NCBI GenBank assembly: GCA_018830405.1
Contig: JAHJSF010000064.1
Location: 1 to 5,262 of the forward strand
Length of the DNA: 5,262 nucleotides
Reading direction: 5' to 3'
Source: Nitrospinota bacterium
Lineage (GTDB): Bacteria > Nitrospinota > Nitrospinia > UBA9942 > JAHJSF01
Part shown: one piece after another, positions 2,381-5,262 of the stretch
Numbering within the stretch: position 1 is the stretch's first letter
Layout: each line of letters opens with the position of its first letter
Program-made: the position numbers and the translations under genes
The notes under the pieces: generated by a model
Told to the model about the DNA's origin: nothing
The model's input: the letters and a program-made list of their open reading frames with translations, nothing else
Database searches by the model: none

Positions 2381-3649
2381 GTTTTCAATGGCTTCATTTA
2401 GAAGCTCAACGGTGTGGTAGACCTTTATCCGGCTCCCCTCTCTCCTAAGCATATCCTCCAACTGCATCTTGCAAGATGGGCAACTTGTAGCTACAATCTC
2501 CGCACCGGTTTTTAATATGGCCTCCACCTTGGTTTTTCCTATTTTTTTGGAGAGGTCATAATGTTTTAGGCTGAAGAGCCCGCTTCCTCCACAACAGCTG
2601 TCGGCGTCTTCCATTTCTACATATTCTATCCAATTAATACCTTTTAATATTTCCCTCGGTTCTTCAAGTATCTGAAGACCTCGCCTCAGGTGGCAGGGGT
2701 CGTGATAGGTTACTTTAATCCTTGTCCTATCTGATACCTTTTGGGTTAGCCCCCTCTCATTTATCTGTTCAACGATAAACCTGTTTATGTCTATAATCTT
2801 CTCCCCCATCATCTTGGCCCCAAATTGTGTCCCGTTGCTTATTTCGGGATATATCTTTTTCAGCATATGACCGCAGGTGGCGCATGAGGTTACTATCTCA
2901 TCCAGCCCATCTTTACCAAATATTGCTATATTCTTCTCGGCCAGCTTCCTTGTCCCTTCTATGTCACCAAGGTGGTATGATGGCGCCCCGCAACAGGTCT
3001 GTTCGGGGGGAATCACTATCTCGACCCCCATCTTTTTGAGTAGGGATATTAAGGCCTCTCCTTCAGATTGGAATATAAGGTTTGTGGTACATCCGACAAA
3101 ATAACCAACCCTTTTGATTGGTTTATCGGGTGATATGGTTTTTGGATATTGTGATAAAAATTCTTTCTTCATAGATAAAGGGAAGAGTCTCTTACCTTTA
3201 TTATCCGCATAGGGGAGGAGTTTGCCCAGAAATCCGCTGTTGGGGATTAGGTTATAGACCCTTGCCAGATAGGAGGAAATCTTGGCCAGATATGATATTC
3301 GCCCCATCCTTTTTAATATAAAGGTTGTCCCCCGGTTGATTCCTTTGTGAACCCCTCTTGTATCCGCTATCTCCTCTCTGGCGGCCATTATGATATCGGC
3401 CGGATTAACTTCGTTAGGGCATGTTTCATTACAGGCCAGGCACGATAGACAGGCGGAGAGTTTTTTTTCGACCCTTCTGTTCAGCTTTATCCGTCCCTTT
3501 AATATCGCAGAGATTATGGCAACTCTTCCCCTAGGACCTATAGACTCATCGGTTGTGTGGACCAAGGTTGGGCAGGTTGCATTGCACTTGCCGCACTTTA
3601 TACACGCGGCTATCTCTTCCCTATATTTTTCTAATTTATTTTGAGACAT
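2378..3649 (-). CDS. (Fe-S)-binding protein with two 4Fe-4S and two CCG domains (GlcF/HdrD-like)
   Basis: This 423-residue cytoplasmic or membrane-associated electron-transfer protein starts with two 4Fe-4S motifs of CxxCxxCxxxCP form (C16, C19, C22, C26 and C67, C70, C73, C77). Two cysteine-rich CCG domains follow: C187, C219-C220-G and C256/C259, then C319, C352-C353-G-G and C390/C393. The layout and length match GlcF, the iron-sulfur subunit of glycolate oxidase, and the related HdrD and LldE-type proteins. These pass electrons between a flavoprotein dehydrogenase, or a heterodisulfide, and a carrier. No GlcD-like FAD subunit is adjacent, so the substrate cannot be named. The ATG at 3649 has a purine-rich but weak SD (AGAGGG further out). 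The gene diverges from the LsrF-like gene. Its TAA stop lies at the outer end of the foldback element. Confidence 0.88.
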   Translation of the reverse strand: MSQNKLEKYREEIAACIKCGKCNATCPTLVHTTDESIGPRGRVAIISAILKGRIKLNRRVEKKLSACLSCLACNETCPNEVNPADIIMAAREEIADTRGVHKGINRGTTFILKRMGRISYLAKISSYLARVYNLIPNSGFLGKLLPYADNKGKRLFPLSMKKEFLSQYPKTISPDKPIKRVGYFVGCTTNLIFQSEGEALISLLKKMGVEIVIPPEQTCCGAPSYHLGDIEGTRKLAEKNIAIFGKDGLDEIVTSCATCGHMLKKIYPEISNGTQFGAKMMGEKIIDINRFIVEQINERGLTQKVSDRTRIKVTYHDPCHLRRGLQILEEPREILKGINWIEYVEMEDADSCCGGSGLFSLKHYDLSKKIGKTKVEAILKTGAEIVATSCPSCKMQLEDMLRREGSRIKVYHTVELLNEAIEN

Positions 3650-3668
3650 CTGCTCTTCTACCCTCTAA

Positions 3669-3710
3669 CTATCATATTTTTGTATGGTTTGCTCGTATCT
3701 ATCATATTTT
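3669..3710. repeat. 12-base direct repeat in the divergent intergenic region
   Basis: CTATCATATTTT occurs at 3669-3680 and again at 3699-3710, exactly 30 bases apart, about three helical turns. The shorter core ATCATAT recurs a third time at 3747-3753, touching the -10 box of the forward promoter. Placement between two divergent genes and helical phasing suggest sites for a regulator. The A+T-rich composition makes chance possible. Confidence 0.4.
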
Positions 3711-3727
3711 GCAGGCGGGATATTTTT

Positions 3728-3756
3728 TTGGCATATTTACCCCTATATCATATAAT
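3728..3756 (+). promoter_or_regulatory. Near-consensus sigma70 promoter for the LsrF-like gene
   Basis: TTGGCA (3728-3733) and a perfect TATAAT (3751-3756) are separated by 17 bases, the optimal spacing. Transcription would start near 3763, leaving a leader of about 49 bases before the ATG at 3812. A strong SD (GGGAGGA, 3798-3804) follows. It is the best promoter match in the window. Confidence 0.65.
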
Positions 3757-3811
3757 AACCAAGCGTATAGTAACTAACCATTAATTTCAAAGATACTGGG
3801 AGGATTGCCTG

Positions 3812-4597
3812 ATGGATTGGGGTATGGAGAATAGATTGTTATCGCTTTTTAAAGAAGATGGACGCTGTTTTTTTATGCCGATTGATCATGGTTACTTTCT
3901 CGGACCTACAAGGTGCCTCGAACGTCCCGCCGAAACAATCAAGCCCCTCATGCCGTATGCCGATGCCCTATTTGTTACCAGGGGGGTCTTAAGGGCAGCC
4001 ATAGAGCCTTCATTTAATAAACCTATAATCCTTCGAATATCAGGCGGAACAAGCGTTGTCGGGGATAACTTGGCCAATGAGATTATTACCACTACTATAG
4101 AAGAGGCCATAAGGCTTAATGCGGCCGCCGTTGGGGTATCGGTTTTTGTGGGAAGCGAGTATGAAAAAGAGACCTTGAGAAACCTTACTCAGACTGTTAA
4201 CGAGTGTGAGAGGTATGGTATCCCCGTTATGGCCGTAACAGCGGTAGGTAAAGAATTGGCCAAGAGGGACAGCCGATATTTGTCCCTAGCCTGTAGAATA
4301 GCGGCGGAGTTGGGGGCCAAGGTTGTTAAGACATACTGGTGTGATGAGGGCTTTGACAAGGTTGTAGCCGGTTGTCCTGTCCCCGTTGTTATGGCCGGAG
4401 GGCCTAAGTGTGAGACGGAGAGAGAGGTCTTTGAATTCGTCTATGATGGACTTCAGAAGGGTTCAGTTGGCCTTAACCTGGGGAGGAATGTCTGGCAGCA
4501 CCCTCGTCCGGTAGCTATAATGAAGGCCCTGCATGCCGTTGTCCATGGTGGGGCAGCCCCGGCCAAAGCGGAAGAGATTTTTAATAGCGAAAAATAG
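3812..4597 (+). CDS. lsrF: LsrF-family class I aldolase/thiolase
   Basis: The 261-residue TIM-barrel protein closely resembles E. coli LsrF, which cleaves phosphorylated autoinducer-2 breakdown product (3-hydroxy-5-phosphonooxypentane-2,4-dione) by transfer to CoA. Shared blocks are DWGM (2-5), DHGYFLGPT (25-33), TRGVLR (56-61), GSEYE (114-118), MAVTAVGK (140-147) and GCPVPVVMAGGPK (187-199). K173 in VVKTYW is the likely Schiff-base lysine, and the phosphate-binding GRN near the end is present. It lacks the first 30 or so residues of E. coli LsrF. The start is firm: good SD, and an in-frame TAA at 3782 with no other start between. No lsr transport or kinase genes are near, so a related role in this DeoC/FbaB-like superfamily is possible, such as aminodideoxyheptulosonate synthase or fructose-bisphosphate aldolase. 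The symbol marks family membership only. An attC-like site starts directly after the stop. Confidence 0.8.
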   Translation: MDWGMENRLLSLFKEDGRCFFMPIDHGYFLGPTRCLERPAETIKPLMPYADALFVTRGVLRAAIEPSFNKPIILRISGGTSVVGDNLANEIITTTIEEAIRLNAAAVGVSVFVGSEYEKETLRNLTQTVNECERYGIPVMAVTAVGKELAKRDSRYLSLACRIAAELGAKVVKTYWCDEGFDKVVAGCPVPVVMAGGPKCETEREVFEFVYDGLQKGSVGLNLGRNVWQHPRPVAIMKALHAVVHGGAAPAKAEEIFNSEK

Positions 4598-4685
4598 TTC
4601 TAACAAATCACTCAAGCCGACCGAGAGTAGCTTTTGTTTGAAATTCAATGCCCTGTGGCTCGGCGGCTTAACTGACGCATCAGAT
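4598..4685 (+). other. attC-like integron recombination site (R' box degenerate)
   Basis: The site has the complete attC order. R'' is TTCTAAC (4598-4604; consensus RYYYAAC, first base off), then a 9-base spacer, then L'' AAGCCG-A-CCGAG (4614-4625). A 33-base variable terminal loop follows (4626-4658), then L' CTCGGCGGCTT (4659-4669), a second 9-base spacer, and R' ATCAGAT (4679-4685). L'' and L' pair over 11 base pairs with a single extrahelical A at 4620, the hallmark position. From memory, the aadA1 attC of class 1 integrons shares CTAACAA, TCAAGCCGAC, CGGCTTAACT and, in place of GCATCAGATG here, GCGTTAGATG. Spacer lengths agree. The GTT of R', needed for integrase cleavage, reads ATC, so the site may be inactive. 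No T run follows the stem, so it is not a normal terminator. Orientation fits an attC lying 3' of the gene before it. Confidence 0.7.
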
Positions 4686-4697
4686 GGAAAGTAGAAT
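4668..4697 (+). promoter_or_regulatory. Weak candidate promoter for the genes after the attC-like site
   Basis: TTAACT (4668-4673) and TAGAAT (4692-4697) are 18 bases apart; a TACAAT at 4697-4702 is an alternative -10. The -35 overlaps the right arm of the attC-like site. It would transcribe the 32-codon ORF and hicBA. The -35 match is only four of six, so this is tentative. Confidence 0.25.
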
Positions 4698-4718
4698 ACA
4701 ATAAAAAGGAGATTGTAC

Positions 4719-4817
4719 ATGGCAGGTGTAAGTAGTCCTATGATTATTGCTGGATTGTTAGAGGAGATATGGACCGACCCCTCAATTTACTCTGTGTGCT
4801 CATTTGTGTTACCATAA
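4719..4817 (+). CDS. Small ORF, 32 codons, unknown
   Basis: ATG at 4719 follows AAGGAGA (4706-4712) at an ideal distance; the frame runs 32 codons to TAA at 4815-4817. The start reads MAGVSSPMIIAGLLEEIW, then the sequence becomes unremarkable (ends FVLP). I do not recognise it. The good ribosome binding site and the position about 35 bases after the attC-like R' box fit a cassette gene start. The short length fits either a genuine small protein or the head of a longer gene cut by later events. In the next frame an open stretch continues to overlap the hicB start, which could mean an old frameshift, but I see no motif in it. Confidence 0.35.
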   Translation: MAGVSSPMIIAGLLEEIWTDPSIYSVCSFVLP

Positions 4818-4847
4818 TTTTAAAGAAACCACTGGGGAGATAATAAG

Positions 4848-5045
4848 ATGAAAACAAAATTAAAAATGATTTATTGGAAAGCTGAGAAGTTCTGGGTAGG
4901 CAAACTCATTGAACACCCTGAAATAATGACACAGGGGGAAACATCAGAAGAACTTGAGGAAAATATGAAAGATGCATATATGCTTATGACGATGGAGGAC
5001 GTTCCAGAAAAACATAAAGTTAAAGAGCTTACCCTTGCGGTATGA
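4848..5045 (+). CDS. hicB: HicB-family antitoxin, short form
   Basis: The 65-residue protein carries the HicB partial RNase-H-like fold signature: a beta strand with MIYWKAEKFWVGKLIEHP (7-24), then the conserved turn TQGETSEE (28-35), and the helix LEENMKDAYMLMT. Antitoxins of this family bind and block HicA. The usual C-terminal ribbon-helix-helix or HTH DNA-binding domain is absent; the protein ends soon after the core. Autoregulation by the classical route is therefore not evident. SD GGGGA (4834-4838) precedes the ATG with 9 bases between. The TGA stop overlaps the hicA ATG, so the two are translationally coupled. The antitoxin gene comes first, the reverse of the E. coli hicAB order. The gene is visibly A-rich compared with the aldolase gene upstream. 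Confidence 0.82.
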   Translation: MKTKLKMIYWKAEKFWVGKLIEHPEIMTQGETSEELEENMKDAYMLMTMEDVPEKHKVKELTLAV

Positions 5046-5215
5046 AAAGAAAAGACCTTATCAAAAGGCTGACCGATTCAGGATGTGTTATTGTTAGACA
5101 TGGAAGCCGCCACGATTTATATAAAAATCCTGCCACAGGAAAAAAGCAGCCAGTTCCAAGGCATAATGAAATAGATGAAAACCTTGCGAAGCATATAATA
5201 AAAGAAGGGTCATGA
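5042..5215 (+). CDS. hicA: HicA-family toxin (mRNA interferase)
   Basis: The 57-residue protein matches HicA: a small double-stranded-RNA-binding-like fold that cleaves mRNA and stops translation when free of HicB. The N-terminus MKRKDLIKRLTDSG is the usual first helix. The catalytic histidine is H24 in HGSRH (20-24), corresponding to GSNH in E. coli HicA. The C-terminal block PVPRHNEIDENLAKHIIKE (37-55) is the family PRH-E-I motif followed by the last helix. Both key regions are intact, so the toxin looks functional. The ATG at 5042 overlaps the hicB TGA (ATGA), and no separate SD is evident, so translation probably depends on hicB. The stop is TGA at 5213-5215. Confidence 0.87.
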   Translation: MKRKDLIKRLTDSGCVIVRHGSRHDLYKNPATGKKQPVPRHNEIDENLAKHIIKEGS

Positions 5216-5262
5216 CTAGAACAGAGGACACTTTCTGATGATTTTAAGTATCAAAAAGTACA

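Follow-up and report, generated by a model that had tools for sequence, protein, structure and literature searches.

Sequence conservation among attC sites, the recombination sites of integron cassettes, is confined to the AAC of the R'' box and the GTT of the R' box (PMC2727003), and PMC12901181, citing Loot et al. 2024, describes the insertion of cassettes at genomic attG sites. Here we describe an attC site, 88 bp long and lying at 4598-4685 on the + strand, in a contig of a Nitrospinota bacterium; the window analysed is this whole contig (C32, 5262 bp), which belongs to the metagenome-assembled genome (MAG) G000 (1.42 Mb in 185 contigs, 87% complete). Judged from its sequence, the structure is a genuine attC by descent and not a look-alike. 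We consider it likely that it is an attC of the genome's own integron that has since degenerated, and that it forms the left edge of a small cassette-array remnant, likewise decayed, which directly adjoins the 3' end of a resident aldolase gene of the LsrF type.

The site begins with an R'' box, TTCTAAC, in which the AAC is intact (4598-4604), followed by a 9-nt spacer, AAATCACTC (4605-4613), the L'' arm AAGCCG-A-CCGAG (4614-4625), a loop of 33 nt (4626-4658), the L' arm CTCGG-CGGCTT (CTCGGCGGCTT, 4659-4669) and a second 9-nt spacer, AACTGACGC (4670-4678). The two arms, seen both in the sequence and in the predicted fold, form a stem of 11 bp with one extrahelical A at position 4620. The last box (4679-4685) reads ATCAGAT in place of GTTRRRY, so that the cleavage triplet GTT has become ATC by two transitions, and it forms non-standard pairs in the covariance model alignment (model R2, see below), in which the R'' box is also recognised. 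The first-pass annotation, made from the letters of the window alone, had described the boxes, spacers, stem and altered triplet in these same terms, and the words that it had named as shared with the attC of aadA1, TCAAGCCGAC and CGGCTTAACT, do occur in a real plasmid copy of that site (L056:5001-5060). The aadA1-type attCs (CAAGCCGAC / CAGCGGAC), with related class 1 cassettes and the chromosomal attCs of sister genomes, have in common with our site the R'' box, the 9-nt spacers, the L''/L' stem with a single extrahelical base and shared words; they differ from it in their R' GTT, in a shorter loop and in the presence of an R arm in the fold. Moreover, 20 of the 22 bases from CTAAC onward are identical to an attC in the sister genome G006.

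A palindrome scanner picked up the class 1 attCs together with other GC-rich palindromes, and we therefore used two covariance models, both built within the present analysis with the window excluded from the training sites. R1 was trained on 13 sites, taken from Scalindua and from the class 1 cassettes of four plasmids, and R2 on 21, of which six were class 1 sites and most came from genomes belonging to the same order. The site scored 18.4 bits with R1 (E 0.0017 in a search of the window) and 36.3 bits with R2 (E 2.6e-7 for the window, 7.1e-5 when the whole genome was searched), E-values that are rough because the calibration was short. By R2 it ranks third in the genome, and both higher scorers, on contigs C104 and C150, are R2 training sites. 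In the opposite polarity R2 found no match at 4598-4685; as only the + polarity scored, the attC reads in the + direction. An Rfam scan of the window gave no match, and neither did an exact-pattern search of the genome with aadA1-type attC words, whose gap was too short for long loops.

The decay of the site is visible in its fold as well as in its R' triplet. In the predicted structure of either strand, by minimum free energy and by centroid, the L stem and its bulge are kept and R'' and R' are not paired together, whereas the aadA1 attC, folded likewise, does form the R''/R' arm. Accordingly, the bottom strand, which the first-pass annotation had proposed to fold in search of extrahelical bases, retains the L stem and an extrahelical T and lacks the R arm. 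Of the possibilities that the annotation had offered, namely a decayed attC, the edge of an array or the insertion of a cassette next to a gene of the chromosome, the loss of the GTT and of the R arm supports the first. The fold is modestly better than that of shuffled sequence (z about -2.3). With the GTT lost and the R arm not folding, we infer that the site is most likely recombination-dead, and for the same two reasons we file it as a degenerate attC by descent, with no claim that it works.

The genome has an integron system of its own. A full integron integrase gene lies on a different contig from the attC site (C76:644-1636; TIGR02249, 419 bits against a cut-off of 265), and its closest named relatives come from MAGs labelled Desulfobacteraceae, followed by Desulfobulbaceae/Desulfocapsa. 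Further attC-like sites, which like the integrase the first-pass annotation had suggested looking for, lie on four other contigs, namely C104 (53.3 bits with R2), C150 (41.7), C120 (22.3) and C123 (17.3, the weakest), next to accessory genes of the cassette type: an unknown open reading frame (ORF) of 110 aa, a HIRAN protein, a weak match to an HNH repeat and a DUF2283 protein. When 77 genomes of the class were surveyed, each of the six genomes of f2, a sister family within the same order, had attC matches (2-14 per genome), and most genomes from other families had none.

Several other features were observed. On contig C83 (L010, 10158-10490) the match of a 110-aa ORF to the integrase model is confined to the N-terminal 96 positions, and the ORF represents a second, truncated intI. 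Directly behind the intI of C76 (L009), direct repeats of about 57 bp containing GTTAAC (1668-1735 and 2927-2992) flank an MscS channel gene (1746-2924, - strand), possibly as a duplicated att-like site beside the integrase. A further short element of the same contig, at about 10851-10895, resembles an attC (TCTAACAAGCAATCCAAACAACACGTTAGGA) but lacks the hairpin middle and is perhaps a deleted attC; it precedes an LprI-like ORF with which the contig ends. The attCs at G000:C150:16264-16337 (L089) and G012:C237:6337-6407 (L121) are very similar and belong to two different families within the class, a likeness that suggests an exchange of cassettes between the two. Finally, a GC-rich palindromic repeat (ACAACCCCCTAT.CCCCCTT..TTAAGGGGGA..GGGGGTTGT) is dispersed over several contigs of the genome, with copies at L095 11819-11866 and 19140-19212, L154 3833-3893 and 17632-17677, L096 4739-4796 and 8548-8598, and L097 4222-4269.

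Cassette DNA follows the attC in the window. A block at 4802-5186 (+ strand) is 84% identical over 385 bp to the hicBA cassette of G006:C166, where the block starts 26 nt after an attC within a two-attC array; the same cassette start stands behind an attC in G004:C175. The block holds a hicB-like antitoxin gene of 65 aa (4848-5045, +), named by its position before hicA since its product matches neither Pfam nor NCBIfam, and the hicA toxin gene (5042-5215, +; Pfam HicA_toxin, E 5.9e-11), whose last two codons and stop come from the end of an insertion sequence (IS). In the window the homology begins only at 4802 and not at the end of R'. The intervening 116 nt (4686-4801, +), compared with L146 and L148, are unrelated to the hicBA cassette and contain the start of another ORF, orfX (4719-4817, +; 32 aa), which probably represents the 5' part of a cassette gene that has been lost, and therefore a deletion has probably fused two cassettes. 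By sequence comparison, the hicBA of the window is a cassette fragment with a chimeric 5' edge, and its right border lies past the end of the contig. In comparison with the G006:C166 cassette, the gene pair has thus been retained, the 5' edge has been swapped for other DNA and the end of hicA has been supplied by the IS. The latter is an IS1595-family element, represented by the C-terminus of its transposase (5207-5262, - strand), and the contig ends inside it; it was recognised as a repeat at other contig ends, the same sequence recurs on at least five other contigs, and a longer copy matches PF12762 with an E-value of 3.3e-4, below the gathering score.

On its other side the attC touches the aldolase gene (3812-4597, +; DeoC/LacD fold, Pfam DeoC), an NF006081 equivalog (360.7 bits, cut-off 297) of which one copy only was found in the genome. 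Its stop codon TAG (4595-4597) adjoins R'' with 0 nt between them, in agreement with the first-pass annotation, and the end of its product matches those of its orthologs to within a few residues. None of the eight orthologs in relatives (57-72% identity) has an attC behind it. The first-pass annotation had held that its proposal would fall with a covariance score below threshold and with a hairpin conserved in relatives only as part of the lsrF 3' region; given the scores above and the absence of the structure behind all eight orthologs, neither is the case. At third codon positions the aldolase gene has a GC content of 0.49, higher than that of cassette genes (0.25-0.37) and of intI (0.36), and no GTTRRRY left border was found before it (3600-3830, which includes 162 bp in front of the gene). 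From its host-like composition, its single copy and the lack of a left cassette boundary, the aldolase looks resident.

The remnant beside it would consist, in order, of the attC, the orfX fragment, hicBA and the IS1595-family element. In the working state of the site, the bottom strand would have folded into a hairpin of L stem and R arm, to be recognised by the IntI encoded on C76 and cut at G^TT in R'. Cassettes may then have been placed in trans by IntI near the end of a native gene, as appears to have happened at two comparable junctions, and the point mutation in R', an internal deletion and the arrival of the IS, the three forms of decay that the remnant shows, would afterwards have frozen it. 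In the first of these junctions, on C104 (L097 9830-9891), the G^TT of an attC lies 7 nt from the stop of malQ, tail to tail, and in the second, on G006:C166 (L146 4530-4593), an attC lies 5 nt from the stop of a MarC-like gene, named from its sequence, again tail to tail. At both loci cassette arrays appear to have landed exactly at the 3' ends of native-looking genes. After canonical insertion, the right border is formed by the last attC with its R' side, and both junctions fit this picture.

As regards the origin of the junction in the window, we favour an array edge shaped by rearrangement or by off-site insertion beside a resident gene, which we prefer, by a modest margin over a former aldolase cassette, because of the composition of the aldolase, its single copy and the missing left boundary. 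Several points weigh against this interpretation. The R'' side of the attC touches the native gene, where ordinary integrase-mediated insertion gives the R' side, and a spacing of 0 nt from the stop to R'' is what real cassette genes typically show. The gene tree places the aldolase of G000 with that of G008 and not with those of the same-order family f2, so that transfer is possible and residence uncertain. In addition, the contig stops 577 bp past the attC, leaving the right border of the array and any second attC out of view, and, being part of a MAG, it could be mis-assembled or mis-binned.

Some of these points bear on an explanation that we hold to be unlikely but worth weighing, according to which the aldolase belongs, or once belonged, to the cassette genes and forms with the attC a single cassette inserted here whose left boundary has decayed. 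Its stop-to-R'' distance falls within the range of -6 to +21 nt seen for the other cassettes of the group, and its tree is out of line with kinship. Furthermore, a zinc alcohol dehydrogenase (ADH) follows the aldolase in six of the eight relatives (L014-L019), a conserved pair that is split in this genome, where the ADH lies on the separate contig C9 (L162, 2993-4018), beside ispD and with no attC nearby. The array may instead have been inserted between the aldolase and this usual partner, and the C9 locus speaks neither way. The host-like composition, the sole copy and the lack of a GTTRRRY in front of the gene argue against a cassette, as do the other attC-bound genes of the group, which are accessory genes, and a strong promoter-like site of the aldolase's own, TTGGCA-17-TATAAT (3728-3756, +; 11 of 12 consensus matches). 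The latter is the promoter that the first-pass annotation had assigned to the gene; the site itself was found by our consensus scan, but the region contains about as many sites of this type as expected by chance.

Two further explanations retain the aldolase as a native gene, and both are improbable. In the first, aldolase and attC would form a proto-cassette, in which a metabolic gene resident in the chromosome, and equipped with a promoter, gained there an attC exactly behind its stop that was later inactivated by the loss of the R' triplet; if true, this would be a snapshot of cassette genesis. In the second, which we rate a little lower still, a circular cassette was cut in R'' on the top (wrong) strand and joined at TTCTAA^C behind the aldolase stop, with the attC first and the gene after it in the + direction. 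This would account for an attC that starts exactly at the native 3' end and for hicBA after it, and its only support is a parallel in spacing, the recombination point being 6 nt from the stop, a distance similar to those on C104 (malQ, 7 nt) and in G006 (MarC-like gene, 5 nt). The right border is out of view, no statistic can be based on three junctions, and the 5' edge of hicBA is unlike that of a clean cassette. The modest fold z-score and the broken R box would be compatible with a hairpin formed by chance, or with a transcription terminator or another structured element at the 3' end of the aldolase gene; this reading was rejected as very improbable on the R2 score and the adjoining hicBA cassette, given also model E-values of 1e-7 to 1e-4, the absence of the site from the terminator-like sites and of any Rfam match, the integrase and cassettes of the genome, and the lack of the structure behind the orthologs.

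Degenerate attC remnants are already known, and the junction with a resident-looking gene of the housekeeping type is the one unusual feature; a literature search for orphan attC cases, limited in reach, found none. The locus adds a MAG that has a chromosomal integron, attC-like sites spread over at least five contigs and a hicBA cassette common to another family of the same order. The junction, like the two comparable loci within 5-7 nt of a native stop, bears on where cassettes land outside the integron, and it also bears on the way in which genes acquire an attC in the first place.

Among described systems, the window resembles the clusters of attC sites lacking integron-integrases (CALIN; PMC9024848) in having an attC and cassette DNA away from the contig of the integrase. 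IntegronFinder 2 requires two attCs for a CALIN, and one is present on this contig of 5.3 kb, at whose end lies an IS copy; we therefore file the remnant as CALIN-like, and the assembly may have cut it off from a larger array. With insertion at genomic attG sites, as described in PMC12901181, the locus has in common that cassette DNA stands beside native genes, and the malQ and MarC-like junctions look like such insertions; the locus differs in that the R'' side of its attC, not the R' side, faces the native gene.
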